Source: Dugong dugon
Lineage: Eukaryota > Chordata > Mammalia > Sirenia > Dugongidae
DNA length: 64,000 nucleotides
NCBI GenBank assembly: GCA_030035585.1
Contig: JASCZL010000105.1
Coordinates: 18,001-82,000, forward strand
Direction of reading: 5' to 3'
In this document: positions 8,858 to 62,439 of the stretch, piece by piece
Layout of the letters: every line of letters starts with the position of its first letter
Numbering within the stretch: the stretch's first letter is position 1
Notes under the pieces: model-generated
What the model was told of the DNA's origin: nothing
The model's input: only the letters and a program-made list of their open reading frames with translations
Database searches by the model: none
Made by a program: the position numbers and the translations under genes

Positions 8858-8930
8858 GTGACAGAGAGGCCTCCAGGGTTCCCTGAGACCAGAGCCTTGG
8901 GATCAGAGATGAGGATTCAGCACACTGAGA

Positions 8931-9090
8931 AAAAAAAAACCCGTTGCTGTCCAGTCAATTCTGACTCATAGCGACCCTACAGGACACAGTAGAACTGCCC
9001 CATAGAGTTTTCAAGGAGCACCTGGTGGATTCAAACTGCTGACCTTTTGGTTAGCAGCCATAACACTTAACCACTATGCCCCCATTGCAC
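8931..9090 (-). mobile_element. AfroSINE
   Basis: Antisense copy: 'cccgttgctgtccagtcaat' then 'gactcatagcgaccctacag', ending in the reversed tRNA-like head 'ggttagcagccataacactt'. It lies just upstream of the coding exon at 9125, inside the presumed intron. Confidence 0.85.
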
Positions 9091-9124
9091 TGAGAGCTCA
9101 TGTAAATTTACTCTCTATTCTCAG

Positions 9125-9920
<796 letters not shown>

Positions 9921-11990: not shown

Positions 11991-11993
11991 CAT

Positions 11994-12290
11994 GCTGTTG
12001 TTAGGTGCCATCAAGTCAGTTCTGACTCACAGTGACCCTATGTACAACAGAACAAATCACTGCCTGGTCCTGTGCCATCCTCACAATCGTTGCTATGTTT
12101 GAGCCCATTGTTACAGCCACTGTGTCAATCCATCTCATGGAGAGTCTTCCTCTTTTTTGATGACCCTGTACTTTACCAAGCATTATTTCCTTCTGTAGGG
12201 ACTGGTCCTCCTAATCACATATGCAAAGCCATCCTCACTTCTAAGGAACATTCTGGCTGTACTTCTTTTAAGACAGATTTGTTCGTCTCA
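11994..12290 (-). mobile_element. RTE LINE 3' end
   Basis: It begins with the reversed RTE tail 'tgttgttaggtgccatcaag' and continues 'gcctggtcctgtgccatcct', 'gagcccattgttacagccac', matching the 3' part of the RTE at 48260-49525. It is 5'-truncated. Confidence 0.85.
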
Positions 12291-12479
12291 TACATAACAC
12301 TACTAAAATGGAAACACGTATCACCCATGCTTTTGAAGTCCACTCTTCCTGCATGTTCTAACTCTCCTCCCCCAGTACTTTCCCACAGGTGAATCCAAGG
12401 TAATTGATGTGAACCGTCTGGTGAGTAGTCTATCTTATCCTTGCTTAAACAAGCACACACAGACATATATGTATTCTCG

Positions 12480-13140
12480 TCTGCTCATTTACGCACACAC
12501 ATAAACATAAACAGGTATTCAAACATATTCAAACAATTGCTGTTGTTTTACACAAATGGGCTCCTTTTGTGTATACTTCTCTGCACCTTGATTTTTCTCC
12601 TTCCATAATACTTCACAGAGATTTCTCCTACTCAACCACTACAACTCTTTTTCATTCTAATGACTCCCTAATTTTATTGATGATGTAGCTTTACCATAAA
12701 TTATCTCTCATTCAACCATCAATAGGTAGTCAATTTTTTGCCATTATTAGCAATAACCATCGTTTGTATACTACAGGATTTGTTTCTGAGGGATAGATTC
12801 TAAAGAGTGAGATTTCCAGTTCAAAGATTGTTTTGAAAGTATAGAGCCATGTCCTTGTCTTTCCCCTAAAGGCTGTCATAATGCACCTTTCCAGCCATGT
12901 CTGAGGGCATCCTTCTCCCCACAGCCCAGGCAGCCATAGGTGGGGCCGATTTTTAAATTGTGCCAGTTTCACTGGTACTTTGATATTTTCTTAACTATCG
13001 GTGTTTTTTAACAACTTTGATTATGTTTAGTGGGCATGTGGATTTGCTCTGAATGGTCCGTTTGAATTCATTGTTCATTTTCAAGCGTTTAACTGTTGTC
13101 CTTCTTGTGTAAAATGGAAATTATTATTAATCCTTGTCAT
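12480..13140 (-). mobile_element. Old L1 (L1M) antisense fragment
   Basis: Diverged antisense L1 3' sequence, for example 'tcattcaaccatcaataggt', 'tttgccattattagcaataa' and 'gagggatagattctaaagag', patterns of L1MC/L1ME 3' ends. The following AT-rich sequence (13307-13603 and 13806-14430) looks like more of the same but is less clear. Confidence 0.55.
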
Positions 13141-13306
13141 CTGGGAGCCCTGGTGGTGCAGTGGTTACGAGCTTGGCTGCTAACCGAAAGACAGGCAGTT
13201 GTAGTCCACCAGCCACTCCTTGGAAACCTTATGGGGCATTTCTACTCTGTCCTGTAGGGTCGCTATGATTTGGAATCGACATGATGACAATTGGTCTTTT
13301 TAATTC
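13141..13306 (+). mobile_element. AfroSINE
   Basis: It starts 'gggagccctggtggtgcagt' with a recognisable Pol III A box ('tggtgcagtgg') and ends at the RTE-like tail 'ggaatcgacatgatgacaat'. Confidence 0.9.
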
Positions 13307-13603
13307 CTTGTCATCTACATTTCACATAATTTTCCAAATCTATTGTTTTTGTATCACATTTTTGCAAGCTTTGTCCCCTAGAACGATCAGTTGAGTCAGT
13401 ACCATTTATTAAATAAATGTAATTTTTCTTTAGTTGAAATACTACCTTTGGATTAATGGTTACTGTGATTTCTTAGTAGATTTTCTGTTTCACTGTTTGT
13501 CAGTTTCTATGCTATGTAATATTCATTTTTTCTGTTACTTGATGAGGCAGACACCTGTTACTATCCTGCTTTTTTGTGTTTTTCTTGTCTATCCTTTGGT
13601 AAA

Positions 13604-13808
13604 GGAGCCCTGGTGTTGCAATGGTTAAGTGCTTGACTGCCAATGGAAAGAAAGGTTGGCAAGTCAAACCCACCCAGCAGCTCCGTGGGAGAAAGGCCTG
13701 GTGGTCTACTCCCATATAGATTACAGCCTAGAAAACCCTATGGGGCAGTCAAATGGGGTCTGTATGAGTCAAAACTCGACTTGGTGGCTCCTAACAAGAA
13801 CAACATTC
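13604..13808 (+). mobile_element. AfroSINE, long form with RTE-like tail
   Basis: The head is 'ggagccctggtgttgcaatg', the body is 'ggagaaaggcctggtggtct' and 'agattacagcctagaaaacc', and it ends 'ggtggctcctaacaagaaca', the CTAACAAC-type terminus seen on RTE LINEs. The 60-codon open frames across it are chance. Confidence 0.85.
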
Positions 13809-14557
13809 TTTGTTATCTATTGTACTATTTGTAGCTGAATTTTACTGTATACAGTTCAACAACTATGTAAATATTTTAACTGCATTACATTCATGTATCA
13901 GTTTTGGGGGACTTCCATTTACTTGATAAGACTTGCCATTTGGAAATATGCCATATTTTTTGCGCTTATTCAAGTTTCATTTGATTTAATTTAATACATT
14001 AGTTTTCTTCATATAGGTCCTTTGCTGTTCTGGTCAAAACAATGTTTTCCTAAACATTTTATAGTTTTGGAGACAATCTGGTGTAGTCAAGAAGTAGGGG
14101 AAAGACAATGGTATGTCCCTCCCACCCTTGCCACTTTTAGACCCTTCTGTCTACGTTGGAGAGAAAGCATTGATTTGGATACATTTGCCTTGTAGCCAAG
14201 TACGCCATTATATCATCAATAAACAAAAAATCTCTTTTAATACCTGTGCTTGTTATTTAAATTTTCTAGTTCAGTCATTCGTCTTAAAACTATGTTGAGC
14301 CATACCAAAATCTATATGTAGTTCCAAATTTATCAGCAGGAGTTGAATATTTTTCCATTTATCTCATAACCTGCTAAGTTTTGGGATAATTTGTATGCTC
14401 CAATAGATAACTAATACTTTGACCTGCCGACCATTATGGCAATTACACACACCTTGTTTCTGACAGTTAAGTACTTCCAGCCGGCCTCTGTTGTGCTGGG
14501 CTCTCATTATTTGCATTGCTACTAGGCAGCCCAGCTCTCACTAACAACGTGAGCATA

Positions 14558-14775
14558 CAGAGATTGGTTTTGTTGTTAGTTGCTGTCAAGTCAGTTTGGA
14601 CTCATGGCGACCCCATGTATGCAGAGTAGAACTACTTAATGGGGTTTTCAAGGCTGTAACCTTTCAGAAGCAGATCACCAGGCCTGTCTTCCGAGGTGCC
14701 TCTGGGTGGATTCAAACTGCCATACTTTCAGCTACTAGTCAAACACTTAACTGTTTGTGGCACCCAGGGACCCCC
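14558..14775 (-). mobile_element. AfroSINE (long form)
   Basis: It begins 'ggttttgttgttagttgctg' then 'aagtcagtttggactcatgg' and ends with the reversed head 'cacttaactgtttgtggcac'. Diverged. Confidence 0.75.
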
Positions 14776-15850
<1,075 letters not shown>

Positions 15851-16159
15851 AATGAAGAGATTAAAGTCCCAGCATTCTTGCCACTGGGCCAGGAAAGCAG
15901 TCCTTCAGAACTCAGAGAACATCAGAGAGATAGAGAGGATGTGGCACAAGAAAGAGATTCAATAAAACTGTCATGAACTCCTGGTTCACCCCCTAGTTGC
16001 ATATGTGTTTCTCTGATCCCAAGAAGCATATCAAATGCTTTAAGAGCTTCACTATGGGTTAGAACACCATCAAGGTCCCAGACTGAGTGGCACTCATATA
16101 GATTATACCTGAATATCACTGCAAAGTCTTCAAAAGTTGAACTAACATTTGAGCCACAG

Positions 16160-16735
16160 AATACAGAAGATGGGATAGCACTTGCAGCCTAAACATAACT
16201 GGGTCAATTGAATGCTAAAATAAAAATATCAACATTTTCCATTAAATTTGTGCAAGACCTATAGTCAAAATGATACGACGCAAATTTTAAAATGCTATTC
16301 CAATCATGTACCAAGAAATAACAGGAATACTTTTTAAGTAAATGGAAAGATAAATAGATGCTATTTGCAAATGAAAATTTTACATGTTAAAAATACAATG
16401 GTAGAAATCCAAAATTTATTTGATATTCTCAACAGCAGAATGGTGATAACAGAGAAAAAAAATTCAATGAGTTGAAAACATCAATAGAAAATATCCATTC
16501 TGGAAACAGAGAGAAAATATATGGAAAAAGAAGGAACAGAGCCTCAAGAACTAGACAAAAAGCCTATTTATTTACTGGAACTCCTGAAGAAGTGGAGAAA
16601 ATGTGTGGTGTAGAAAAAAGTCTTTGAAGACATACTAGCTGAACACTTTACACGTCTGGTGAAAGACATAAACTTACAGATTCAAGAAGCTCAGCAAACC
16701 CCAACAAATTAAACTTAAAGAATTCTATGGCTAAA
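16160..16735 (+). mobile_element. Old L1 (L1M) ORF1-region fragment
   Basis: The sequence 'ggtgaaagacataaacttac' then 'agattcaagaagctcagcaa' is the conserved ORF1 stretch of L1M elements. The upstream A-rich, coiled-coil-like part is also L1. No intact frame. Confidence 0.65.
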
Positions 16736-20314: not shown

Positions 20315-23300
20315 ATGACAGCACTAAACTCTTACCTATCAATAATTACGCTGAATGTAAATGGACTTAATGCACCAATAAAGAGACAGAGAGTGGAGGA
20401 TTGGATAAAAAAGCATGAATCATCTATATGCTGCCTACAAGAGATGCACCTTAGATTTAAAGACACAAAGAGACTAAAACTCAAAGGATGGAAAAATATA
20501 TATCAAGCAAACAACACTCAAAAAAGAGCAGAAGTGGCAATATTAATCTCTGACAAAATAGACTTTAAAGTAAAATCCACCAGAAAGGATAAGGAAGGGC
20601 ACTATATAATGATTAAAGGGTCAATACACCAGAAGGACATAAATATAATAAATATTTATGCACCCAACAACAGGGCTCCAAAATACATATAACTCTAACA
20701 CCACCGAAAAGAGAGATAGACAGCTCCACAGTAGTAGTAGGAGACTTCAACACACCACTTTCAGTGAAGGACAGAACATCCAGAAAGAAGCTCAACAAAG
20801 ACACGTAAGAGCTAAACGCTACAATCAGCCAAATTGATCTCATAGACATATACCGAACACTGCACCCAACAGCAGCCAAGTATACTTTCTTTTGCAACGC
20901 ACATGGAACATTCTCCAGAATAGACCACATATTAGGCCATAAAGCAAGCCTTAACAAAATCCAAAATATCGAAATATTATGAAGCATCTTTTCTGACCAT
21001 AAAGCCATGTAAGTGGGTATCAACAACACAAAATGCAAGGAAAAAAAATCAAACACGTGGAAACTGAACAACATCTTGCTCAAAACTACTGGGTTATAGA
21101 AGAAATTAAGGAGGGAATAAAGAAATTCATAGAATCAAATGAGAATGAAAACACATCCTACCAGAACCTTTGAGACACAGCAAAAGCAGTGCTCAGAGGT
21201 CAGTTGATAGCAATAAATGCACACATCCAAAAGGAAGAAAGGGTCATAATCAAAGCATTAAACCTACTACCTGAACAAGTAGAAAGACAGCAGCAAAAGT
21301 AGCCCACAGGAGCCAAAAGGAAGGAAATAATAAGAATTAAAGCAGAATTAAATGAAATAGAGAATAGAACAACAATTGAAAGAGTTAATAAATCCAAAAG
21401 CTGGTTCTTTGAAAAGAACAACAAAATTGATAAACCATTGGCCAAACTGGCAAAAGGAAAACAGGAGAGGAAGCAGATAACCTGTATAAGAAATGAGATG
21501 GGTGATATCATAACAGACCCAACTGAAATTAAAAGAATCATAACAGATTACTATGAAAAATTGTACTCTAACAAATTTGAAAACCTAGAGGAAATGGACA
21601 AATTTCTAGAAACTCCCTACCTACCTAAATTAACACAAACAGAGTTAGAAAACTAAATAAACCCATAACAGAAGAACAGATTGAAAAGGTTATTAAAAAA
21701 CTCCCAACAAAAAAACAGCCCTTGCCCGGATGGCTTCACCAGAGAATTCTACCAAACTTTCATAGAAGAGATAACACCACTTCTACTAAAGGTATTTCGG
21801 AGCAGAGAAAAATATGTAATACTCTCAAACTCATTCTATGAAGCCAGCATAACCCTGATACCAAAACCACGTAAAGACACCACAAAAACAGAAAATTACA
21901 GACAAACATCCCTCATGAACATTGACGCAAAAATCCTCAACAAAATTCTAGCCAACAGAATTCAGCAACATATCAAAAAAATAATTCACGATGACCAAGT
22001 GGGATTTATACCAGGTATGCAGGGATAGTTCAACATTATAAAAACAATCAATGTAATCCATCACATAAATAAAACCAAAGAAAGAACCACATGATCTTAT
22101 CAATCGATGCAGAAAAGGCATTCAACAAAGTCCAACACGCATTCATATAAAAACTCTCAACAAAATAGAAATAGAAGGGAAATTCCTCAATATAATTTAG
22201 GGCATTTATACAAAGCCAACAGCGAACAACAACCTAAATGGAGAGACTTTGAAAGCATTCCCCTTGAGAGAACGGGAACCAGACAAGGATGCCGTCTGTC
22301 ACCACTCTTATTCAACATTGTGCTGGAGGTCCTAGCCAGAGCAGTTAGGCTAGAAAAAGAAATAAAGGGCATCCAAATAGGTAGGGAAGAGGTCAAAGTA
22401 ACTCTATTTGCAGATGATATGATCTTATACACAGAAAACCCCAAAGAATCCACAAGAAAACTACTGGAACTAATAGAAGATTTCAGCAAAGTTTCAGGAT
22501 ACAAAATGAACATACAAAAATCAGTTGGATTCCTTTACATCAACCAAGGGAACCTTGAAGAGGAAATCACCAAATCAATACCATTTACAATAGCCCCCAA
22601 GAAGATAAAATACTAAGGAATAAATCTAACCAGAGATGTAAAAGATCTATACAGAGAAAACTACAAGACACTAGTGCAAGAAACTAAAAGAGCCCTGCAT
22701 AAGTGGAAAAATATACCTTGCTCACGGATAGGTAGACTCAACATAGTGAAAATGTTAATTCTACCCAAAGAAATCTACAGATACAATGCATTCCCGATCC
22801 AAATTCCACCAGCATTTTTTAATGAGATGGAGAAGCAAATCACCAACTTCATATGGAAAGGGGAGAGGCCCCGAATAAATACATCATTACTCAAGAAGAA
22901 GAACAAAGTGGGAGGCCTTACACTATCTGATTTTAGGACCTATTGTACCGCCACGGTAGTCAAAATAGCCTGGTACTGGTACAACAATAAACACATAGAC
23001 CAATGGAACAGAGTTGACAGTCCAGATATAAGCTCATCCACCTATGAGAAGCTAACATTTTACAAAGGCCCAAAGCCCATTAATTGGTGAAAAGACAGTC
23101 TCTTTAACAAATGGTGCTGCCATAACTGGATATCCATCTGCAAAAAACTGAAACAAGACCCATACCTCACACTACGTACAAAAACTAACTCAAAAAGGAT
23201 CAAAAACTTAAATATAAAATCAAAAATTATAAAGATCATGGAGGAAAAAATAAGGACAATGCTAGGAGCCCTAATACATGGCATAAACACAGTAAGAACC

Positions 23301-24127
23301 ATAAGTAACAATGCACAACCACCAGAAGAGAGACTAGATAAATGGGACCTCCTAAAAATCAAATACTTATGCTCATCAAAAGACTTCACCAAAAGAGTAA
23401 AAGGACAGCCTACAGACTGGGAAAAAAACTTTGGCTACAACAAATCTGATCAGCGTTTAATCTCTAAAATCTACAAGATACTGCAAAACCTCAACAGCAG
23501 AAAGACAAATAACCCAATTTAAAAAAATGGGCAAAGGATATGAACAGGCTCTTCACCAAAGAAGATATTCACACGGCTAACAGATACATGAAGAAATGCT
23601 CATGATCATTAGCCATTAGAGAAATGCAGATCAAAACTACAATGAGATATCATCTCACCCCAACAAGACTAGCCTTAATCAAAAAAACACAAAATAAATG
23701 CTGGAGAGGTTGTGGAGAGACTGGAACACTTATACACTGTTGGTGGGAATGTAAAATGGTACAACCACTTTGGAAATCGATTTGGAACTTCCTTAAAAAG
23801 CTAGAAATAGAAGTACCATACGATCCAGCTCTCCCGCTTCTTGGAATATATCCTAGAGAAACGAGCCATCACACGAATAGATATATGCACACCCATGTTC
23901 ATCGCAGCACTGTTCACAACAGCAAAAAGAAGCAACCTAGGTGCCCATCAACGGATGAATGGATAAACAAACTATGGTATATCCACACAATGGAATATTA
24001 CACAATGATAAAGAACAAGGATGAATCCGTGAACCATCATATAACATGGTGGAAGCTGGAACTTAATAAGCTGAGTGAATTTCATCAGTTACAGAAGGAC
24101 AAACACTGTATAAGACCACTATTATAA
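20315..24127 (+). pseudogene. L1 ORF2 (endonuclease / reverse transcriptase), degenerate
   Basis: ORF2 nicks target DNA and reverse-transcribes the L1 RNA. The N-terminal AP-endonuclease piece is open at 20315-20692 (motifs LNVNGLN, LQEMHL, NIYAPN) and ends at a TAA. The RT core is readable in 21681-22616: '[14 protein letters not shown]' and the catalytic F-A-D-D at 22407-22418. The C-terminal Cys knuckle C-W-R-G-C-G-E...H-C-W-W-E-C is in 23624-24127, which ends at the natural stop. At least six stops or frameshifts separate these pieces, so no full protein is made. Confidence 0.88.
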
Positions 24128-38256: not shown

Positions 38257-40349
38257 AGCTTGAAGGAGAACACTGTATTTTGCTTTCTCTTGCATGTGGT
38301 GAATTGGGAACCTACGCTTGCTGCTAACAAAGTTTTTACTCAGCACAAATACTGTTTTGCCTCATTCGTGTTCCAGAAAGGGAGAAAGGCGGTTTCTCTT
38401 CTCCTTTAGCGATAGCGTCTGTAAAGCGGTATTCTCAGCCACACAGCAAAGAATGCCTCCCGGAATGCTGGAAAGCCTGAACGGCTTCAACTACTTGAAG
38501 GGGAGAAAAGTCATACACTTCATCCAGGTAGACAATGCACAGGCAAATTTCTTAGGCACGTGACAGATAGGGATTTTCAAACACAGGAAATCAATCTTTC
38601 TCCTTAAATCCCCAGACTCAGAGCAACAAGCTCTTGCTTTCTCTTTCAGGCAGGGAAGAAGCTACATGCTCCCGTTAGGCACACAAGGTTTAGTCAGCAA
38701 CACTGAACCGCTACTGCCCTCCTCTGGCTGAAGGCAAACAATCTGCCTGTTTTGCTTTGAAAGCCAGTAGTACCTTCATTCCCTGTTATGCAAAGTTTCC
38801 TTTGAAAACCAGGAGATTCAAATACTTGCTTGGCGCTCACTCTCCTGTCTTCTACCACTGAGACAACATTTGAGAAAGCAGCTTTTGGTGGGCGGACTGT
38901 TTCTTCTATCAAAACTGAAAACTTCAGTAGATTTAGTTAAGCAGCTTGAAGGGGAACGCTGTATTTTGCTTTCTCTTGCCTGTGGTGAATTGGGAACCTA
39001 CACTTGCTGCTAACAAGGTTTTTACTCAGCACAAATACTGTTTTGCCTCATTCGTGTTGCAAGAACGGGAGAAAAGCGGTTTCTCTTCTCCTTTAGCCAT
39101 ACCGTCTGTAAAGCGGTATTCTCAGCCGCCCAGCACAGAATGCCTCCTGGAATGCTGGAAACCCTGAATGGCTTCAACTACTTGAAAGGGAGAAAAGTCA
39201 TACACTTTATCCAGGTTGACAATGCAGAAGCAACTTTCTTAGGTATGTAACACTGAGGGATTTTCAAACACAGTAAGTGAATCCTTCTCGCTTCATCCCA
39301 GACTGAGAGCAACAGAAGCAACTTTCTTAGGTATGTAACACCGAGGGATTTTCAAACACAGTAAGTGAATCCTTCTCGCTTCATCCCAGACTGAGAGCAA
39401 CAAGCTCTTGCTTTCCCTTTCAGACAGGGAAAAACTACATGCTCACGTTAAGCACACAAGGTTTAGTCAGCAACACTGAACCCCTTCTGCCCTCCTCTGC
39501 CTGAAGGCAAAAATATCTGCTATTTTCCTTTGAAAGCCAGTGGTACCTTCAGTCCCAGGGTACTAATGGATTTCAAAGCCAAAGAGGCTTCTTCAGGGTA
39601 TCCAACATTCCGGGAGGCATTCTGTGCTGCGTGGCAGAGAATACCGCTTTACAGAGGGTATCGCTAAAGGAGAAGAGAAACCGCGTTTCTCCCATTCGGG
39701 AGCGCGAAGGAGGCAAAACAGTATTTGGGCTGAGTAAAAACTTTGTTAGCAGCAAGTGTAGGTTCCCCATTCAACACATGAAAGAGAAAGCAAAATACAT
39801 CTTTCGCCTTCAAGCTGCTTAACTAAATCTACTGAAGTTTTCAGTTTTGCTAGAAGAAACATTCCGCCCACCACAACCTGCTTTCTCAAATGGTCTCTCA
39901 GTGAGAGAAGACTGGAGAGTGCGGGCCTATCAAGTATATGAATCCCCTGGTTTTCAAAGGGAACTTTACATACCAGGGAATGAAGGGACTACTGGCTTTC
40001 AAAGCCAAACCGGCAGATTGTCTGCCTTCAGCTAGAGGATGGCAAAAGGGTTCTGTTTTGCTGACTAAACCTTGTGTGCTTAACACGAGCCTGTAGCTTC
40101 TTCCCAGCCTGAAGGAGAAAGCAAGAGCTTGTTGCTCTCAGTCTGGGGATGAACGGAGAACGATTCACTTTCTGTGTTTGAAAATCCCTCTGTGTTACAT
40201 GCCTAAGAAAGTTGCCCATGCACTGTCTACCTGGATAAAGCGTATGAGTTTTCTCCCTTTCAAGTAGTTGAAGCCATTCAGGGTTTCCAGCATTCCTTGA
40301 GGCATTCTGTGCTGCGCGGCTGAGAATACTGCTTTACAGATGGTATCGC
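38257..40349. repeat. 686-bp tandem repeat, two direct copies and one inverted copy
   Basis: Unit 1 (38257-38942) and unit 2 (from 38943) both open with 'agcttgaagg.gaac.ctgta', giving a 686-bp period. Unit 2 stops at about 39559. From there to 40349 the same sequence runs on the minus strand for slightly more than one unit, read in the same circular order. Copies look about 85-90% alike by eye. It is not an AfroSINE, RTE or L1 body known to me. It sits where the 5' end of the antisense old L1 should be, so it might be L1 promoter monomers, a local satellite seed or an LTR tandem. Confidence 0.85.
39226..39401 (+). repeat. 88-bp tandem duplication inside repeat unit 2
   Basis: 'agaagcaactttcttaggta' at 39226 recurs at 39314. 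The two 88-bp copies appear to differ at one base (cactgaggg versus caccgaggg), so the duplication is much younger than the 686-bp units. Confidence 0.9.
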
Positions 40350-40735
40350 TATGATTGAGCCCATTGTTGTAGCTACTGTGTCAATCCACCTCCTTGAGGG
40401 TCTTCCTCTTTTTCACTGACCCTCTACCTTACCAAGCCTGATGTCCTTGTCCTGTGATTGTTCCTTCCTGATAACATGTCCAAAGTAAGCAAGACAAGTG
40501 TCACCATCCAAGCTTCCAAGACACAGATTTGTTCATTCTTCTGGCAGTCCATGGTATGTTAAATATTCCTTGCCAACAAGCAGTTCAAGTGCATCAGCTC
40601 TTCTTCTGTCTTCCTTTTTCATTGTTCAGCTTTCACATGCATATAAGGGGGTTGAAAATACCCTGGCTTGGGTCAGAACACCTTACTCATCAAAGTAACA
40701 TCTTTCCTTTTTAACACTTTAAAGGGGTCTTTTGC
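40350..40735 (-). mobile_element. RTE LINE 3' fragment
   Basis: Antisense: 'gagcccattgttgtagctac', 'ttcttctggcagtccatggt', 'aacactttaaaggggtcttt'. It joins directly onto the inverted 686-bp repeat on its left and an L1 on its right. The usual 3' tail is missing, so it is truncated at both ends. Confidence 0.85.
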
Positions 40736-48259: not shown

Positions 48260-49525
48260 TGTTGTTGTTAGGTGCTATTGAGTCTGTTCCAACTCATATC
48301 TACCCTGTATACAACAGAACCAAACACTGCCTGATCCTGTACCATCCTCACAATCATTGCTGTGTTTGAGCCCATCGCTGCAGTCACTGTGTCATTCTAT
48401 CTCACGGAGGATCTTCTTATTTTTTGCTGATCCTCTGCTTTACCAAGCATGATGTCTGTCTCCAAGGACTGGTCCCCGCTGATAACATGTCCAAAGTACT
48501 GGAGACAAAGTCTAGCCAACCTCACTTCTAAAGAGCATTCTCGTTGTACTCCTTCCAAGACAGATTTGTTCATTCTTCTGGCAGTCTGCGGTATATTCAA
48601 TATTCATCAACAACACCGTAATTCAAAGGCATCAATTCTCTTTGGTCTTCCTTATTGTTTGTCCAGCTTTCACATACTTATGAGGTGACTGAAAATACTA
48701 TGGCTTAGGTCAGGCACACCTCAGTCCTCAAAATGATATCTCTGATTTTTAACACTTTAAAGAGGTCTTTTGCAGCAGATTTGCCCAATGCAATATGTCC
48801 TTTGATTTCTTGACTGTGGCTTCCATAGGCTTTGACTGTGGATCCAAATAAAATAAATCCCTGACCACTTCAATATTTTTTCCATTGATCATGATGTTGA
48901 TTATTGGTCCAGTTGTGAAGATTTTTACTTTCTTTATGTTGAGGTATGATCCTGAAGGTGGTAGTGTTTGATCTTCATCAGTATGGGATGCAAGTCCTCT
49001 TCGCTTTCAACAAGCACGTTTGTGTCATCTGCATATTGCAGGTTGTTAACGAGACTTCCTCCAATCCTGACGCCAGGTTCTTCTTCGTATAGTCCAGCTT
49101 GTTGGATTTTTTTCTCAACATATAGATTGAAACAGTATGGTGAAAGGATACAACTTTGATGCACACCCTTCTCGATTTTAATCCCCTTGTTCTGTTGAAA
49201 TGACTGTCTCTTGGTCTAGGTATAGGTTCTGCATGAGCACAATTAAGTGTTCTGGAATTCCCATTCTTCCTAATGTTATCCATAATTTGTTATGATCCAC
49301 ACAGTCAAATGCCTTTGCATAGTCAATAAAACACAGGTAAACATCTTTCTGGTATTCTCTGCTTTCAGCCAAGAACCATCTCACATCAGCAATGATATGC
49401 CCCCATTCCTCATCATCTTCCAAATCTGGCTGGAATTTGTGGCAGTTCCCTGTCAGTGTATTGCTGCAACTGTTTTTGAATTATCTTCAGCAAAATTTTA
49501 CCTGCCTGAGATATTAATGATATTG
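48260..49525 (-). mobile_element. RTE LINE, 3' half, antisense
   Basis: It starts with the reversed 3' terminus 'gttgttgttaggtgctattg' and runs back to the middle of the RT domain. On the minus strand the catalytic tetrad Y-A-D-D lies at 49024-49035 in 'NNLQYADDTNVL', and 'LNCAHAEP' and 'CFIDYAKAFDCVDHNKLW' are readable from 49178-49423. It is 5'-truncated near 49525 and frame-broken. It meets the oppositely oriented RTE at 49526. Confidence 0.9.
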
Positions 49526-51692: not shown

Positions 51693-52214
51693 AACGTATA
51701 ACTCATTCATTCAAACACTATCAGGCCAGTGCTAATGTAATACCCCTTTTTTAGACAAGACACTGAGGCACAAAGAGGTTTTAGTGTAGAAAAAAAAGTA
51801 TTTCAGGAATGATTAGATCTTGAAACATACAATGGTTTATAGAACAAAAAGCAGGTAGAGTATTAAAAAGTCTTAAATTGGTCATTCACGAAACTGACTT
51901 AGAGTACTCCTTCATTTATGGGTTATAAACATGGCTGTTTCAATTTAAAAAACTGAATGTTGTATTCTAGTATTTTCTATCATCATAACTTTTAAGTACT
52001 CTAATTCTTAAATATCTAAACAGTTGTTTAAACAATAGTTGTAAAAATAGCAAAATGTGAAGTTTATTCACATTGTCCAATTTGTTGTAGTTTCGTGTAG
52101 TTGTATTTAGGGATCAACAACACTAGTCAAGTGCTTTTTTATTTTGAGTATTTGAGGTAGTTTTTTAAAAAATTGTGCAGCAACTCAAAGAAGTCCTCCT
52201 TTTTTTGAATTAAG
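51693..52214. other. Sequence upstream of the first Ki-67-like exon
   Basis: AT-rich, with no recognisable repeat and no match found by eye to the short N-terminal Ki-67 exon that should precede the FHA block. It ends in 'tttttttgaattaag', the acceptor of the next exon. Confidence 0.35.
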
Positions 52215-52293
52215 GGGTATGGAGTATGACATCCGTATCCTGCTTACTGTGGTGTCCCAAAAATATTGCAAAATTGAAATCCATCAGCAGGAT
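52215..52293 (+). pseudogene. Ki-67-like exon A: first half of the FHA domain
   Basis: Acceptor AG at 52213-52214, donor GTAAGT at 52294. It enters with one base left from a split codon, then reads G-M-E-Y-D-I-R-I...V-V-S-Q-K-Y-C-K-I-E-I-H-Q-Q-D without a stop. Ki-67 has G-I-E-C-D-I-R-I...V-V-S-K-Q-H-C-K-I-E-I-H-E-Q-E at the same place (about 17 of 26 residues shared). The Arg of 'DIR' and the Ser of 'VVS' sit in the FHA phosphopeptide-binding loops. The intron that follows is only 93 bp. Confidence 0.8.
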
Positions 52294-52386
52294 GTAAGTG
52301 TTGTTTCTAAGTTGTTTTAAACACTTTTTTTTACTTTACTTTTTATCTATTTATTTGTTGCATGTTTCTCCCTTCTCTACTTGTAG

Positions 52387-52506
52387 CTACTACTGATTAA
52401 TTGCAGTACCGCCATTCCTGCACAACTAAATGGAGCCTATGATAATGAACCTGTAAAACTAAAGCATGCAGATATGATAACAATTCTTGATCGATGTTTT
52501 AAGCAG
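52387..52506 (+). pseudogene. Ki-67-like exon B: second half of the FHA domain
   Basis: Acceptor 'ttctctacttgtAG' (52385-52386), donor GTAAAG at 52507. 120 bp, phase 0 at both ends, no stop. It reads L-L-L-I-N-C-S..., then N-G, then E-P-V-K-L-K-H-A-D-M-I-T-I-L-D-R-C-F. Ki-67 has the same N-G, E-P-V-R-L-K-H-G-D and I-T-I-I-D-R-S-F landmarks (about 20 of 39 shared). The FHA-typical Asn-Gly (NG) pair is retained. Confidence 0.82.
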
Positions 52507-55500
52507 GTAAAGACTAATTGGGTTTACTATAAACAGCACATTCCAATTAACCATAAACTAGTTTCAAAGTTCAACTGTGATCTGTCTTTAATGCTGTTGA
52601 GTGTCAGAGTGTTTCTTCCTGTCATTCTCAAAACTTTCTTAATCTTATGGCAAATAAATTTAGGAGGAGTGAAAAATGAGCCTTAAATGGGATTTAAATT
52701 CAAGGATTCGAACACACAGGTCTACGGCAAGAAGGGTGACTTGGTCCTTAGGAAGTTTGTTATTTGCTTGAAAAGTCTGACTGGATATGAAGCTATATGA
52801 GTCTTTTAGTGTCTTTATAGTAAAATACATGCATAGGAAAAGGCACAAAACAAAATATACAGCTCAATTTATCATGAAGTAAGCACCCATGTGATCACAA
52901 CTCATCATGAAATAGAAGAGTACCAGAAGCTTCCTTCATACTGTCTTCTAATCTCTACTTCTTCCCCTTGCCATGTAAGCCACTATTATGTTTTAGGACA
53001 TCATAAAATTTTCGGTCGTTTCTACCTAAGCATGCATCTCTAAACATCGTGGTTTGTCTCTCTTTCTTCAAATCCATCTAAATGAACTCATGTATTTCAT
53101 GTATTTGAAAAGAATGTGTAAACTACAGTTATTAGGTACACTGTCTAATCTATATGTCCATTAGACTCAAATCTTCTATAATACTATTTTTCCCCATGCT
53201 TATTACTTATTCTCAGAGGAATGTTGGAATCTCCTGCTAAGATTGATTCTTAGTTATCGGCTAAAATTCTTCACCTTTAATTTCCTCGGGCATAGTCAAC
53301 CTAGTTATTTTAAACATTGCCCCATATTACCACTATCTGACTCTTCAAATGAATCTGTTTCTATAGTCTACTGTTCATACCTCCAGAGGCAAAGCAGTCC
53401 CAAAGCTGGTCCAAATTACCAAGCTTTCCATTACAGAAACAAGCCAAACACATAGGATGCAACTGTCTTAATCAACAAATCTACCTGTATCGGTGGCTCT
53501 ATATCTGCTTTTCCTCTTAAAATGAACTATCTGTGTGCCTTTCTTTAGACAACCTTCCACTTATTTAGAGATTCCCTCTCTTTGCCTACAGAGGCCCTCA
53601 CTCTTGGAGGACAAAGAACACAACTCTAGCAATTTTTCCCTGTACTGGATCAGTTCCAACAAGATTCTAACAGATTATAGTCTTCATCAATAAAACAAAA
53701 GATCATTCCCTAGAGCCTAGCCAGAAAGTGCCCAAGCCATGATTTCCTTCTACTGCAAAGTTCCATAAAAAAATCTATTAAGATTCTGTTAACTATCACA
53801 TTGCCAAGACCAACAGTTAATCTTACATTCTCATCCTAAGTCTGACTCAATTGGTTACTTCCTTCTCCTTGAAACTCTTCCTTTGACTCCCACACTCTCT
53901 CTGATCCCCCATTCCTGGCTACACCCTGGCTATCTCTTTCTTTTAGTGCTTCAAAGCTCAGTTCTTATATCTCTTCTGATTTCATTCATAGTCTTTTCTC
54001 ATGTGATCTCAGTCTCTCGGAGGTAGTCTGAACCTGTATATTCAACTCCCCTCTCCATTGTTCTGTCAAGATATCTGAGGAACACGTCAAACATACATTC
54101 AACAAGCAAAGTCTTGATATCTTCAGTGTCCCTCAGTTTTCCCCATATCAGCAAATGGGCAATTCAATTTTTGTTCAAAACCCATAAAGTCATTCCCTTC
54201 TTATCTCATACATAACATTTAGTATCAAGTACTGAAGGCTCTACTTTAAAATATATCTGGAATTAGACCTCCATTCACCTCGTCTATTTCTACTCTCAAC
54301 CAATTATCTCCATCTCCAAGCTCCTTATGATTTTCTCCCTGCTTCTACCCACACAACTAGAATTATCCTTCTAAATGCAAGGCACATGATTCCTATGTCT
54401 CTAATTGCTTCCCCTCTCACTCAGAGTAAAATCCAATCTCCTTTCCATGACTTATGAGATTCTGGGTCAGTTGCCTCCTGCTGACCTCCTTGACCCCATC
54501 CTTTATCCTTTTCCCCTTTACACTTCTGAAGTTACCCTGGTCCCTCAATGCATTCAGCATACAAGCACGCTGTTGCCTGGAGCATTTGTCTTCACTCTTC
54601 CCTTTTCCTGCTACTGTCTTTTGCGAGATGTTCTCATAGAACATTATCACCTTCTTTCAGATCTGTAACAATGACCCGGAGGTATTCCCTGAAACAACCC
54701 CCACCCCATCGCTGTCCATCAGCCCACATGCTCTACTTTTCTTCCATTTTGAAAACTTCACCAACGATTGACATGTCTTTTTCTTCCTACTACTGTATAA
54801 GCTCCTTTACGAAAGGAGTTTATTTGCATTCATTTGTATTGCATAGTGCCTCAGAACCTTATGGCAAATCTTAGCCCTCAAATCCCTGTTGAATGAATGC
54901 TCAATGAATGAGTGTCTTCACTAAGCACTAGGAAAGGGAGATTCAAGAGGTAAGAAGAAATTGTTGAGACCAGAACTATTCCCCCAAAGGAAATGTTGTT
55001 CAAATTGAGCTCAGCTGAAATGGTTAAAGAAATCTAACAAAGAATTAAAAAATGGATCTTAGGAAGAAGGTCCTTAGATATTGACTACCCTGAGAAAGAA
55101 GTCCAGATATCTGACTGCCTCCAATTTTTCTTAGATGTATATCTAAATTCAAATCAGGCCCTCCCACTGAGGTGCCAAAGTTTCCCATATAGAAAAGTTT
55201 GGTTCTGTGAATTATCCCTGAGTTCTATCACAACAATTATGAATCTTGCTAAATGTGCCTTAAAAGATGTACCTGGATTTGTTCAGACACAGATTAACTA
55301 AGTGGAAAATTGAAGAGATGATAATGTTATTAAATAGAAGTATAGCTCTGCGGTTACACTGCTGTATGTGACTTAGCAAGATGATAAAAGCATCAGGAGT
55401 CACCAATCCTGCTAATTTTCCTTCCAAACTAGAGGGAACACAATTTTGCTCTTATCTACACTAGATTCACATATAGATGGCGCTCAGGATATAGTTGAAT

Positions 55501-55761
55501 CATAGTCTAGCCAGTGTTCAGAGATTAACCTGGGTCTCAGTCCTCTGACAATGGTATTCCAAAAGACACATAAGGCAATGTAGATCTAAGTGTTTACTGT
55601 AAAAATATTAACTCTAAATTGACTTGCATGGACAAGGTAATATCTGGAACAAAGTCTGAAATTTGTTTCTTGACCTTGCACATTCACCAGATATGGAAAC
55701 TTTAACCAGGGAATACAACAATTTCATCTGACACTTGGTCTGTCATTCTTTGCCCTTAAAG
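52507..55761. other. Intron of the Ki-67-like remnant
   Basis: Mostly single-copy, with an L2 LINE piece at 54100-54925 (listed separately). No further coding block recognised, although short diverged exons could be missed. Confidence 0.5.
54100..54925 (+). mobile_element. L2 LINE remnant
   Basis: 'acccataaagtcattccctt', 'gcttcccctctcactcagag' then 'taaaatccaatctcctttcc', 'tgttgcctggagcatttgtc', and the terminal 'gaatgaatgctcaatgaatg' follow the order of the L2 3' region. Ancient and diverged. The open frames at 54405-54874 are inside it. Confidence 0.65.
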
Positions 55762-55847
55762 TTTGAATCCGAAGTGTTCCTGAAGGAAGCAACAAAACTG
55801 AAAGTCAAGAACAACAGTGTAAAGAAGTGATGGAAAAGATCATCAAG
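55762..55847 (+). pseudogene. Ki-67-like exon C, frameshifted
   Basis: A good acceptor ('gtcattctttgcccttaaAG', AG 55760-55761). In the frame inherited from exon B it starts F-E-S-E, like Y-E-N-E just after the Ki-67 FHA domain, then runs out of register to TGA at 55828-55830. The +1 frame gives S-V-P-E-G-S-N-K-T-E-S-Q-E, which resembles the next Ki-67 residues, and stays open to the end. So one base appears to be missing at about 55771-55774. The donor GTTTGG is weak. Confidence 0.6.
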
Positions 55848-56029
55848 GTTTGGAATTTGATTCCTTGGCATGATGATCTAAACTCATTTATATGTACTTG
55901 AATGAATGGTTTCTCACTTTAAGTCATTGACAGTGAGTATGGCGCATTGGTTATAGGAGGAGAATCTGACTATTGTGATAAAACCAAATTGAACTTAGAC
56001 ATATTAGAATACTCTAAAACTATAAAACC

Positions 56030-56165
56030 AAAAAAAAAAAAAACCAAACCCTTTGCTATTCTGTCGAATCTGACACATAGCGACCCTGTAGGACAAAGTA
56101 GAACTATAGAACTGCCCATAGGGTTTCTAAGACAGTGATCTATAAAGAGGTATATTCTGTGACCG
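56030..56165 (-). mobile_element. AfroSINE, truncated
   Basis: 'accaaaccctttgctattct', 'acatagcgaccctgtaggac', 'gcccatagggtttctaagac'. The head is missing. Confidence 0.8.
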
Positions 56166-56278
56166 TAATGCATCAATGACAGGAAACAAAACAAAACCGG
56201 ACCAAGACAAAACAACAACAAAATGCCACACACCAAAACAATCCTTTGTAGACGTTTTCAAGTTTAAAAATTGTAAAA

Positions 56279-57085
56279 ATGGGCACAGCAGGAATCAGAC
56301 CTTGTTTAACTTCAGAAGGGGAAGAGAGAATCACCAACACAGACCAAGGCTGATTCCTGTGAGGTGGAGGTCAGACATACCTGCTCCCTCCAATATTTTT
56401 TTTTTTTTACCAATTCTGACAGCAGCCCTCCCTTCCATGGCACTCTCTACTTCTCTGCTGGGTTTAAGAATTCATTGCAATGGCCACACAGAACTCACAG
56501 ATCATACTCATGATTATGAGGTTTATTAGGTAAGTAACAGTTACAGTTCAGGCTGGAAGACACTCAGAATACTGTTCTTCCATCAGGACAGCCTCTTCCC
56601 AGTCATGCTTGCAGGTATGACTCTCCCTGGCCCTAGGCCTTTCTCTAAAGTCATGCAGCTTTCACTCTCCATGGGTCAGAATGGCCACCATGCCATCTCC
56701 TGCTGGTCTCTGCTGCCGGGTCTCTCCTGCCACCGCTTTTCATCGTCTTCAGTGTTACACCTTCCTGTCTCTCTCTCACTCTTGGTCTCCTGCTTCCAGG
56801 AGCTTCTTGGCGCAGGGATCTCAGGTCCAAAGGATCTCTGCTCCTGGCTGTTCTTTCTTGGTAGTGGTAAGATCCTCCTCTCTGCTCTGGAATTGGCTCT
56901 CTTTTAAGGCAAAACTGATCAATCTCCTTGGTGGGCCACAATATACCCTATCACACACTCTTGCCCAATCACCTGGGTGGGAGTTACAAGTTACAAGTTA
57001 CAAGTTACAACGCAGGCCACCCCCTGGATTTTCTGGCCATGGTTCTTTCATATTTGGAGGATAACTTCCCCCTCCAAATCATTTT
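56279..57085 (-). mobile_element. ERVL-like provirus, 3' LTR (left, antisense)
   Basis: It matches the right-hand LTR at 58950-59755 block by block: 'caattctgacagcagccctc', 'ggccacacagaactcacaga', 'ctgctgccgggtctctcctg', 'tctggaattggctctctttt'. It contains a small (TTACAAG)n run at 56985-57009. The ends are approximate. Non-coding. Confidence 0.75.
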
Positions 57086-58926
57086 ACCAGTCCAAAACAG
57101 TCATTAATAATTAGTCTTTCAACAGGGCAGAGTCCACAGGGTGAGGTTACTCAGGTCCCAGCCATTCAGGTCTGCTGCAAGTGTTCATCTGATGTGGTCA
57201 GCTTCTCCAAAAGTCACTTTGTCTTCACACTTTCTGGCCTCCAATAAAATTAACTGAGAGAAGATTATTCCCTTGCTCTGAGCCTCACAATGTGTCAGCA
57301 TAGCAAAACTTTCAAGGGGCTTTCGGTCCAGCCACTCTACTCCAGACCAGCCTTGCCTCCCCCTTAGTCCACTCTTTCACACTTACAGCTTCTACAACTG
57401 CACACAATTAACCCTGTTAACACGCAACACTCAACAGCTGAATCATATAATCCTATCAGCATCTTCCCCACCCTCTCTTCCCCACACCCATCAGGAAAAG
57501 AGAAATCTATTCAGTGGAGATCTTCCCTTGTCCCCCTCGTTTAATGGAAGCACGCTCATGAAAGCCTGCAAGCCAGTCACTTCATGCCTTTATCTGCCCC
57601 TGTTTTAGATAGCCAATGTTTAAATTGTCCATCCCTATCAAACTAGTACTCTGAAGACCATGTTCCTTGGTCTTGAAGAATCTTCTGTTCTGGTTGGGAC
57701 TTTGAGTATCTGCATCCCTAAGCAAAGTCCACTGCAGAGGAAGTCATCAAATTGCAGCAGTCAACACCAGCCTCATGGTGTCCAACATCTTTCTCTTCAT
57801 TCGCTCGGTTTCTGGTCAGCTCATCCCTAGCCATCCAACCTAGGTTACAATGGATAGCAGCCTCAGGCTGGAGAGTTCACACACACCTCCCAGCAATTCA
57901 GTCAGCCCCTTCAAACACTCTCACCCTTAGCCCCTTTAGGCTAGGTCGGTATGTTCCACCCATAAACTTCAGGAGTCTAACAACTCCTTTTACTTCTGAC
58001 CAGCCAGGCTTTCTTTTCTCTCTCATCTCTAGCCCCAGTGGGCTAGATGGACAGGAGACAATGGAACATGTCCAAATTCAGCCCATCTCTTTATTGCAGT
58101 GCTTCCTCCACTTCCACTCATTAGTGGATCCAGGTGGTCACCAGAAGCGAGCTGACCAAGCTGTCTACTTGCCAGCTCCCTTTAACTTCCAGGCCTGAAA
58201 GGGGACTCTTTCTGATGGACACTGACTTTTCCTGCCTCGGTGCATCCAACAGCAAACCACTTGCTTGAAATTCAAAAAACAGATGGTCACTTTTTCTGCA
58301 GATCCTTGTTTCTGTTGCACATCTTCTGTTCTCTGAGCAGTTCCAGGTGGTTCTGCCTGTCTTTTCAAATGAACATATAGGTGGGGCTCAGGTTTTCAAC
58401 CTAAGCCCTCACTCTGTACACAGGGTTACTACATTCAAATCAACAGCGTGTATTTCCCTTTCCTCTTTTAGCATATCCGATCAAGTATTGGCTGAAGGCA
58501 GAGTTACACATTCTCTATAATCCAGAATACCCAATATTCAGTTCTAGCATTAGGTCTGCATTACAACCTGAGGTAGGGGAAACATTCAATATCCTTAGTA
58601 CATTCAGATAAATGCATAATCCGAAACATGTAACCCTTTTAAAACATTCCAGTTTAGTCTTCTCTACACCTGAACTATCTTCCCATTCATATGCAAATGA
58701 CCTTGGGCCTCTGGCTCCTAGGAACCAGAAGACCCTGGGCCCTTATCAATCCTCCTGCTTATCTGGCCTGGTTTTTGCCCCAGACCACTCCAGGTGCAAC
58801 TTTTCAGCCATTACAGGTAGCAGCAACCAAAGCAACCATCCAAGAATGAAAAGTTTCTCTTCCCAAGCCCCTTCATTCTTTCTCTTACAAAGTTCCATGC
58901 TTTAATGAGTCTGGAGCCATTTCAAA
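57086..58926 (-). mobile_element. ERVL-like provirus, internal region
   Basis: About 1.8 kb between the two LTRs. It has no long open frame on the minus strand and no recognisable gag, pol or env motifs. The longest open frame on the plus strand (57752-58198) is not viral-looking. Size and lack of genes fit a MaLR-type or internally deleted ERVL element. Confidence 0.65.
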
Positions 58927-58946
58927 GAATCCTGCTTCTGACGCCA
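58927..58946 (-). other. Primer-binding site, tRNA-Leu type
   Basis: On the minus strand it reads TGGCGTCAGAAGCAGGATTC, directly after the 5' LTR. This agrees at about 17 of 20 positions with the leucine-tRNA primer site of ERVL elements as I remember it. It fixes the provirus orientation as minus. Confidence 0.7.
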
Positions 58947-58949
58947 ACT

Positions 58950-59755
58950 ATACAAACTACTGAGAGGCAGTGTCTGACCTCCTCCATCCCCACAAGAGGG
59001 AAGGAGAACCGAGATATACACTGCAAGACTGACTCCCATGGGGTGGAGATCAGATAAGTATCCTCTATCCACCATCTTTACTAATTCTGACACCAGCCAT
59101 CCCTCACATAGCACTCTCTAGCTCTCTGCTGAGTTGATAAGTCGTTGTAATGGCCACACAGAACTCGCAGACCATACTCGTGATTATGGGGCTTATTAGG
59201 GAAGTGATAGTTACTATTCAGGCTCAAGGACACTCAGAATACAGTTCTTCCATCAGGACAGCCTCTTCCCAAACGTGCTAATAGGCACACCTCTCCCTGA
59301 CCCTAGGCCTCTCCTCAAAGGCACTCAGTTTTCTCTCTCCATGGGCCTGGAAGTCCACTGCACTGTTTCCTGCTGCCAGAGCTATGCTGCCGGGTCTCTC
59401 CTGCCACCGCTTCTCACCGTCTTCAGGGTTACAGCTTGCTCTCTCTCTCTCTCTCTCTCACGGCTTTCTGCTTCCAGGAGCCTCTCACTGCAAGGATTTC
59501 AGGTCGAAAGGATGTGTTCTCTGCTCCTGGCTGTTCTTCCTTGGTTCTTCCTCTCTGCTCTGGAATTGGCTCACTTTCAAGGCAAAACTGACCAATCCAA
59601 TCCCTTTGGTGGGCCACAACTTCCCTATTACACACTCCCACCCAAGCATCTGGGTGGAAGTTACAAGACCATGGCTAGAAAGGCCACACAAAGTAAACAA
59701 AAACACCGCAGCACCTTGGACTCACTTTTCAAGCACAGTCTCTAAAAATCACAGA
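58950..59755 (-). mobile_element. ERVL-like provirus, 5' LTR (right, antisense)
   Basis: Partner of the LTR at 56279-57085. It includes a (TC)n run at 59432-59459. The open frames of 156 and 128 codons across it are LTR sequence, not genes. The provirus lies wholly inside the presumed Ki-67-like intron between 55848 and 59859. Confidence 0.75.
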
Positions 59756-59859
59756 GAAGCAAATTGGTAAAGAACATAATAGCAAAAAATGTTTCCATAA
59801 TTATGATTTCTGCATTTGAAAGAAATCTATAGCACTGTTCTTATTTTTCTGATTCACAG

Positions 59860-60123
59860 GAATCACGGAGTTCAGTGGTGGATGTTGCAGTACCAGAAAA
59901 CTCTATGTTAGCAGTCTTTGAGGAGAACAGTCTTAGAAACATGGAAGTTCCGCCAGAGTCAAAAGATAGAAGTTTGCACCAACCAGAGTTTATTACACTA
60001 TTACTTGAGCAGTTTGAATGAAAAATGAGCAATGCTTCCCTACAGAAGCCCCAGATGTGCCTTGGATCTCCTAATGTCAATTTAGCAGACATTACCAGCT
60101 TTTATGATTCTGCAGCGGTTATA
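59860..60123 (+). pseudogene. Ki-67-like exon D with in-frame TGA
   Basis: Acceptor 'ttctgattcacAG' (58-59 of the 59.8 kb line), donor GTGAGT at 60124. 88 codons, phase 0 at both ends. It reads E-S-R-S-S-V-V-D-V..., then P-E-F-I-T-L-L-L-E-Q-F-E-stop-K-M-S-N-A-S-L-Q-K-P, then Q-M-C-L-G-S-P-N-V. Ki-67 has E-P-F-L-T-L-W-L-T-Q-V-E-R-K-I-Q-K-D-S-L-S-K-P, then Q-M-C-S-G-L-P. The TGA at 60019-60021 stands where Ki-67 has Arg, consistent with a CGA-to-TGA transition. The RVxF (PP1-docking) segment, which follows in Ki-67, would lie in the next exon and is not seen here. Confidence 0.75.
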
Positions 60124-60374
60124 GTGAGTTTATTTCGCTGTAAATGTATTTTTCCTAAAAGCTTTACACCCCTACCTTATGTATAGACGCGAATTAATAA
60201 AATACCTTAATTCATTGAGTAATGATTTGCTCTGTGGTAGACAGTCTTACTAGGCAAGATCATTGTCTACCGTGATAGATTGTTAGCAAAGACCTGGATA
60301 ATTGCAATAAGGTCTCATAGAGGAAGTACAGACAGGGAACCAAGTAGCAGGGAATACCAAGAGGGATGGGAAAA

Positions 60375-60632: not shown

Positions 60633-60983
60633 CTATACTTACTCTTTATAATTCAAAATAAGAGTAGTGAGTCAGCCTTACACTTTCGCTGTAAAAGCCT
60701 CCTAGAGCATCCCCTGATCTTATTTCTTGCAAACCTATGGTTGAGACACCCCAAATTGAGAACTCAAACTTGTGAACTCTTTTATTTACCTTATTGTGTG
60801 GCTCCTTTTGTCTCCCAGGCATCCATCTTTATGTGTCTGAAGTCAATAACATTATGAAAATTCTGAGCGTCTAAGATGCTTCCCAGTTTTGATAGACAGA
60901 TGTCCTGTGAAACTAGAGGAGCATAACTTTGCTCTTCTAGGTGACAGAATCTATTATTACTATTTTAGTGTAGAAGCAACCAT
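60633..60983. other. Intergenic sequence, nothing recognised
   Basis: No repeat or coding feature seen. No further Ki-67-like exon found. Confidence 0.35.
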
Positions 60984-61142: not shown

Positions 61143-61657
61143 TTTTATTAAACCCCAATTTTGGGCCGATCTTTGAAAACTTCCGATTTTGTATGTTTAG
61201 GGTTAGTCCTAAGCATTTCTATTTTTCCCAGGTTTTAGGAAGCTTCAGAAGCTAGCTCAATATGACCCAGTAGGAATGGACTGCTTAGGAGACATATCAT
61301 AAGTGCACCTGACATCAGCAATAGGGACTTCAATTTCAAGGTCTCCACTATTGCTAAGTATTTCTCCTTACCTATATATAGAGTAACCTTAATGTTGAAC
61401 CTGCTGCTCACCAGCTTCTGTGGGAAAAGCTAGTTTTTGAGATAAAGCAAACACTGCCCGCTAGCTTAACTTGTTAGTAGGTGTAATGAAACCAACTCTA
61501 AAGTTAGCTGAATTGTGGGTAGAGAAGCACCACCAATAGGTGGATGAACTCCTTGTTATTGGCGTGTTACAAAATAAGTATTAAAATTGAGTACTGAGAT
61601 AATGTTATAGTAAATTGACAGAATAATATTATGGCAAATGAACAGAATAATAAAAAT
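61143..61657. other. Intergenic sequence, nothing recognised
   Basis: AT-rich, no coding signal or named repeat. Confidence 0.35.
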
Positions 61658-61980
61658 GAGCTTATATTGCCTGTTGCTGTTGTTTGGTGCCGTCGAGTCT
61701 ACTCTGACTCATAGTGAGCCCATGTACAACAGAAGGAAACACTGCCAGGTCCTGCGCTGTCCTCACAATCATTGCTATGTTAGAGCCCATTGTTGCAGCC
61801 ACTGTGTCAGTCCATCTCGTGAAGTGTCTTCCTCTCTTTCACTGACCCTCTACTTTACCAAGCATGATGTCCTTTTCCAGGGATTGCTCCCTCCTTATAA
61901 TGTGTCCAAAGTATGTCAGATGAAGTCTCCCCATCCTTGCTTCTAATGAGCATGCTGGCTCTACTTCTTCAATATATGCA
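61658..61980 (-). mobile_element. RTE LINE 3' end
   Basis: 'gttgctgttgtttggtgccg', 'aaggaaacactgccaggtcc', 'agcatgatgtccttttccag', 'tgctggctctacttcttc'. 5'-truncated. Confidence 0.88.
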
Positions 61981-62059
61981 CTATATTGGCTACATCTTTT
62001 TATTGTTGATTTATTATAAATTAACTTTTACTTATTACAAAATTATTAGTCTTCTTCAT

Positions 62060-62230
62060 GTGGGGCCCTGGTGGCACAGAGCTGAAGAGCTTGGCTACTA
62101 ATCAAAAGGTCAGCCGTTCGAATCCACCAGCCCCTCCTTGGAAACCTGATGCATTACTTCTACTCTGTCCTATAGGGTTGCTATGAGTCAGAATCGACTC
62201 GAGGGCAATAGGTTTGGGTTTTTTCTTTTC
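62060..62230 (+). mobile_element. AfroSINE with well-preserved Pol III boxes
   Basis: Head 'ggggccctggtggcacagag', B box 'gttcgaatcc' near 62117, tail 'gagtcagaatcgactcgagg'. The best B box in the window. Confidence 0.92.
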
Positions 62231-62439
62231 TTTTCATATTAAAAATAAAATACTGCTCATTGATAGTTTGAGAAGCCAAAAAATATGACATTGGTTAAAG
62301 AAAGAAGTTAAATTATTTGCTTTGGGAGATTTTTGGATCTTCCCTCTGTAATCATTCAGATATAATTTTCCTCCTTTGAAACCCCATTAGACATTAATAT
62401 CATATCTCGTGAGCTGCATCAGGATCTTCAGCTCAGTGT

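Follow-up and report, generated by a model that had tools for sequence, protein, structure and literature searches.

A probably dead, rearranged MKI67 fragment in the dugong genome, one of a family of dispersed MKI67 copies

The last 64 kb of an 82-kb contig of the dugong (Dugong dugon) genome, 64,000 nucleotides referred to here as the window, contain an intron-bearing copy, at the level of DNA, of part of MKI67, the gene for Ki-67. Ki-67 serves as the standard marker for cells in division, and its gene is usually regarded as single-copy. From comparison of the window with the MKI67 of the same genome (3.16 Gb in 196 contigs, given C-numbers here; that of the window is C192) and with the other copies found, we conclude that the window copy is very probably a dead, rearranged MKI67 fragment within a lineage-specific family of MKI67-derived duplicons and, judged from its sequence, most likely neither encodes a Ki-67-like protein nor serves any function in its own right.

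The window copy and its homology to Ki-67

An initial annotation of the window described four exon-like blocks of a degenerate, intron-bearing Ki-67 copy, the first two being the FHA domain, the third the post-FHA residues and the fourth a segment near the region that docks protein phosphatase 1 (PP1), and all of these identities were borne out. Blocks 1 and 2, joined to a peptide of 66 aa, matched the human Ki-67 FHA domain in the PDB (2aff, 1r21) with an E value of 1e-19 and 72 bits, and only two PDB sequences, both Ki-67 FHA domains, matched at E ≤1. With a human Ki-67 N-terminus as the query, tblastn over the window found the FHA pair (E 2e-13) and block 4 (E 3e-5); it gave no third match below E 1 and none for the PP1-docking RVxF segment. 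Alignment with the dugong MKI67 identified block 3 as its post-FHA exon and block 4 as an exon lying upstream of the PP1-docking exon, and MKI67-like exon borders are recognisable, minus one donor and one acceptor. The introns align as well, with 672 mismatches in 2813 noncoding positions (~76% identity, K 0.288), a divergence too large, as the annotation had argued, for a recent copy of MKI67. A retrocopy or processed pseudogene was ruled out, because the introns are retained. The features are listed below in window coordinates, with MKI67 positions numbered downward from C18:79,050,000.

38257-40351, no strand: units of a satellite-like repeat, both tandem and inverted, where the core duplicon begins on the left (self-matches of 222-762 bases, 86-91%)
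40348-62403, plus strand: core duplicon in common with the copy on C143, ~22 kb (4 of 10 sampled C143 pieces colinear, 94-99%)
51722-53189, plus strand: MKI67-derived block with introns and both FHA exons (MKI67 positions 5735-8132)
52215-52293, plus strand: first FHA exon, open (acceptor AG at 52213-52214 and donor GT at 52294-52295 retained)
52387-52502, plus strand: second FHA exon, open (acceptor AG at 52385-52386 retained)
52503-52504, plus strand: donor of the second FHA exon, GC where MKI67 has GT (alignment with the dugong MKI67)
55520-56024, plus strand: MKI67-derived block containing the post-FHA exon (MKI67 positions 8205-8699)
55761-55826, plus strand: post-FHA exon, block 3 (acceptor AG changed to AA at 55759-55760, 1-base deletion, donor GTGATG retained)
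56406-56990, no strand: direct repeat resembling a long terminal repeat (LTR), copy 1 (79.9% to 59077-59667)
59077-59667, no strand: LTR-like direct repeat, copy 2 (79.9% to copy 1)
59715-60296, plus strand: block 4 region, displaced ahead of pieces due before it (MKI67 positions 10643-11231)
59860-60123, plus strand: block 4 exon with TGA at 60019-60021 (comparison with the dugong MKI67)
60635-60838, plus strand: MKI67 intron piece (MKI67 positions 8697-8904)
61205-62401, plus strand: MKI67 intron pieces with repeats between them (within MKI67 positions 9026-10158)

The core duplicon, whose ends are defined against contig C143 alone, runs from the end of the satellite-like repeat, a stretch that contains an 88-base double, to the point where homology to MKI67 ends. 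Pieces resembling short interspersed nuclear elements (SINEs) and the LTR-like repeat pair precede the block-4 piece. The first coding exon, which holds the start of the FHA fold, had no match in the window or in the preceding 18 kb, the long repeat frames of the dugong MKI67 had none across the 82-kb contig, and Rfam gave no match at gathering score in the window.

Lesions are found at three sites, namely the donor of the second FHA exon, the post-FHA exon with its lost acceptor and deleted base, and block 4 with its TGA and displacement. A good-looking GT near the end of the second FHA exon sits 4 bases on and is in a different phase. The phase-matched splice sites of the initial annotation therefore hold for both sides of the first FHA exon and the acceptor of the second, but not for the second FHA donor or the block-3 acceptor.

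The MKI67 gene of the dugong

MKI67 itself lies at C18:79.04 Mb on the minus strand, at a place given by the Pfam FHA search and with a Ki-67 match of E 2e-25. The first coding exon was located there, as were both FHA exons and the post-FHA, block-4 and PP1 exons; with long repeat frames of 1504 and 812 aa still open, it looks from its sequence like the working gene. The window copy resembles it in the FHA, post-FHA and block-4 exons, their flanking introns and the matching exon borders, whereas the copy is without the first coding, PP1 and repeat exons, carries splice and frame lesions and is rearranged. The Pfam FHA search of the whole genome gave 8 places, MKI67 included, but missed every copy; a domain split between exons probably falls below the cut-off, as in the window, where the partial domain scored 17.3 bits against a cut-off of 20.7.

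Two further observations concern this locus. The C-terminal frame of the dugong MKI67 (L013 3975-6413, minus strand) contains a run of near-identical units of ~40 residues (RQETRVKTRHQRTRLGEETQHSHSLP...), and we know of no such run in human Ki-67. A second PP1 exon (L095, C18:79059345-79059777), 89% identical to that of MKI67, open and with the PP1 motif RVSF retained, is found ~23 kb upstream and probably stems from a later tandem duplication of part of MKI67.

A family of copies in three subfamilies

A genome-wide search with a 451-base FHA probe gave 48 candidates, and the 40 that were scored comprised MKI67 and 39 copies, a count that may include second haplotypes. Subfamily A has 28 copies, the window included, with 92-100% identity to the probe, whereas subfamilies B (9 copies) and C (2 copies) show 77-82% and MKI67 77%. 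All nine B copies have lost the same 21 bases, in frame, from the FHA domain. The donor of the second FHA exon is GC in 8 of the 28 A copies (L016-L023, among them the window) and is retained as GT in 8 of the 9 B copies, the ninth, L052, having GA.

Block 4 was followed with a first probe (40 scored of 145 candidates) and a C-type probe (40 of 87), and the 40 scored matches of the former were all at least 97% identical. The rearranged unit was present in each of six sampled block-4 copies over the 2.5-3.5 kb fetched, and the TGA in all seven rows with the window counted, L077-L079 being mutually identical; since both the stop codon and the rearrangement are common to the sampled copies, the unit was probably multiplied when it was already broken. 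Over 3.05 kb, copies on C9, C20, C18 and C13 are 99.5-99.6% identical to the window, and such long blocks of high identity at several places in the genome identify the unit as part of a segmental duplication. C20, C13, C9, C18, C24, C8 and C4 have copies less than 0.6 Mb from one of their ends, and other copies form interstitial clusters.

The PP1-exon probe met 1801 candidates, mostly through its repeat tail, and the 40 scored gave 15 further Ki-67-like places at 67-89%, one partial on C26, and short repeat tails. Among the 40 scored, these 15 places include both C copies and neighbours of 6 or 7 of the 9 B loci, whereas A copies have no such place beside them. Three B loci have a second block-4 match ~25.5 kb away (C24:71926097/71951656, C8:36515703/36541265 and C2:65260315/65285876), as if the B unit had itself been doubled there.

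Age and origin of the family

A protein tree was built from the Ki-67 FHA sequences of the dugong MKI67, its human, bat and whale counterparts, that of one further mammal, those of a monitor lizard and two fishes, and seven of the 39 copies (three A, with the window among them, two B and two C), the copies being represented by 66 residues. The seven copies and the dugong MKI67 group together with support of 93/90, just below the threshold at which the program stars a group; the four other mammals stand apart from this group, with the lizard and fishes outside. In a DNA tree (690 columns, the partial rows L043 and L054 having long branches), A, B and C split ~0.1 from the tips and A forms a shallow star, the window type being very young. 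The copy thus appears to be an old duplicate inside the MKI67 clade of its own genome whose descendants multiplied recently. Placement in that clade as a recent duplicate was what the initial annotation had named as counting against its proposal; the placement was found, but the duplicate is old rather than recent.

The trees do not favour the proposal itself, that the window holds the relic of a third gene of the Ki-67/Repo-Man family as an old vertebrate paralogue. A gene of that kind predating placental mammals would account for the large divergence from the dugong MKI67 (K 0.288), and by eye block 4 has some human Ki-67 residues absent from the dugong MKI67; however, the copies group with that MKI67 in the protein tree and their introns still align with it, and we consider such an ancestry highly improbable. 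It is nearly as improbable that the multiplicity is largely an artefact of the assembly, in which unplaced contigs such as C192 would represent second haplotypes or a single locus assembled more than once. All 8 sampled pieces of C142:10001-90700 that fall inside C192 match it at 99.7-100%, so that C142 may be either a second haplotype or a very young duplication, and three block-4 pieces, on C32, C114 and C11, show no difference in 3449 bases. The copies of 92-98% identity, however, occupy distinct places on many large contigs and carry distinct lesions.

From the trees and the layout of the copies, an order of events may be proposed for the family of duplicons. A large part of MKI67, perhaps lacking the first coding exon, would have been duplicated early in the afrotherian line, a placement that rests on SINE motifs, and the descendants of this duplicate would have become subfamily C, which is the fullest, subfamily B, with its in-frame FHA loss, and subfamily A. 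The A unit, which in the window lacks the PP1 and repeat exons, would have been disrupted by SINEs, by an LTR element and by the displaced exon; it would then have multiplied inside a larger segmental duplication, both near the ends of contigs and in interstitial clusters.

Is there a working gene in the family?

The two C copies, at C4:197.50 Mb and C20:80.47 Mb, are more complete. The former (C4:197.496-197.514 Mb) is colinear with MKI67 positions 5735-16349 and 21724-23611, inserted repeats aside, and most of the repeat exon is gone; downstream, one later exon is missing, the exon with SWADVV is broken and there are stops in the remnant of the repeat exon. The C20 copy was read as far as the PP1 exon, and the first coding exon lies beyond the stretch read in both. 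The splice sites of the C copies are retained where they can be defined, the PP1-exon donors starting with GT in both, and both copies keep the PP1 motif RVSF, while the KiR-SLiM, as defined in PMC5005033, is altered in both.

Several observations weigh against the conclusion that the window copy belongs to a family of dead fragments. The C4 and C20 copies each keep five exons open (~230 codons), comprising the two FHA exons and the post-FHA, block-4 and PP1 exons, and the FHA pair with all four of its splice sites is intact in 8 of the 28 A, both C and 4 of the 9 B copies. In the window the FHA exons are still open, although in a neutral simulation at a branch length of 0.15 the FHA frame alone, which is weak evidence, stayed open in only ~7% of runs; either this is chance under full neutrality or an ancestor of the family was still coding. 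The MKI67-vs-A comparison gave 0.163 nonsynonymous (dN) and 0.495 synonymous (dS) substitutions per site, a ratio of 0.33 that may or may not be due simply to constraint on MKI67 (for this pair a first noncoding figure of 0.67 was discarded, as it counted non-aligning flanks, and the 0.288 given above was used instead). Upstream, an RTE-type repeat (window 48432-49524) is 81-84% identical to one upstream of the FHA exons of MKI67 and stands in colinear order, which may reflect a duplication reaching further 5' or two separate insertions and makes the 5' limit of the copy uncertain. Within A, on the other hand, averages over 27 of the 28 copies (L043 omitted) were dN 0.043, dS 0.021 and noncoding 0.054, a relation in which no protein constraint is seen.

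An alternative reading is that a working N-terminal Ki-67-like gene, with the FHA domain and PP1 docking but no long repeats, gave rise to the family and may persist in subfamily C. Its product would recruit PP1 to chromatin and bind partners of the FHA domain, and the window copy would be a dead derivative; we hold this tentatively as a minority possibility. Besides the five open exons, their splice sites and the RVSF motif, it draws on the comparison of C4 with C20, which gave dN 0.090 and dS 0.172 (ratio 0.53; Fisher p 0.02 for nonsynonymous against synonymous changes, on rounded counts), on the ratios of MKI67 to C4 (0.49) and to C20 (0.32), and on a simulation of full neutrality since the split of C4 and C20, in which the 681 bases of C exons stayed open in 0.2-0.3% of runs along the whole path and in 4% along half of it, figures biased by the choice of well-aligning exons. 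However, the dN of 0.090 is about equal to the noncoding distance of 0.099, and is thus low against dS without establishing constraint on the protein. The downstream damage in C4, the altered KiR-SLiM in both copies and the limits of the stretches read also speak against it, as do the acceptor of the PP1 exon, which could not be pinned down, and some exons between the five, which were not identified. A 177-aa concatenate of A type found no annotated protein of the family, with none of its 60 word-sharing candidates at E ≤0.001 (reach ~97-310 aa). The five open exons of C4 and C20 give some substance to the suggestion in the initial annotation that the gene might be intact elsewhere, although C4 is broken further downstream. 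Subfamily C may hold, or may once have held, an N-terminal Ki-67-like gene. In a more specific case, which we regard as rather unlikely, an afrotherian line would have retained a truncated paralogue with the FHA domain and PP1 motif as a gene; C4 and C20 would be its survivors, and dozens of dead copies would have arisen from it.

Relation to known systems

Repo-Man (CDCA2), the other protein considered in the initial annotation, is not known to have an FHA domain; nothing of CDCA2 was found in the window, and the match of the window is to the FHA domain. According to PMC5005033, Repo-Man and Ki-67 have only the PP1-docking segment in common. A human pseudogene, MKI67P1, is by its name a Ki-67 pseudogene and figures in a prognostic signature (PMC7277826). 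The literature searched, which lacks most subscription papers, gave no account of Ki-67 as a multi-copy family. Ki-67 exon probes meet dozens of related copies in this genome, which could confuse read mapping and marker design, and the two fuller C copies could point to an extra Ki-67-like gene; if subfamily C did prove to be functional, it would reveal what portion of Ki-67 can act without the long repeats.

The expansion of TP53 retrogenes in elephants, as described in PMC5061548, took place by segmental duplication and is similar in that a copy of a cell-cycle gene was multiplied in an afrotherian with flanking transposable elements, and differs in that the seed here was an intron-bearing piece and not a retrocopy, with no function claimed for it. 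That paper reports 19 TP53 retrogenes for the African elephant and single ones for hyrax, manatee and tenrec. In the dugong, a p53 search in which all 11 candidates were scored gave three multi-exon p53-family loci and one apparently intron-less copy, at C23:29147664-29148022, with one in-frame TAG. Elsewhere in the window, an open frame of 110 aa at 9588-9917, followed by a charged stretch, matches Pfam Spt46 (PF17734) with an E value of 2e-7 and 31.5 bits against a cut-off of 29.5, and is possibly a FAM170/SPATA46 relative.

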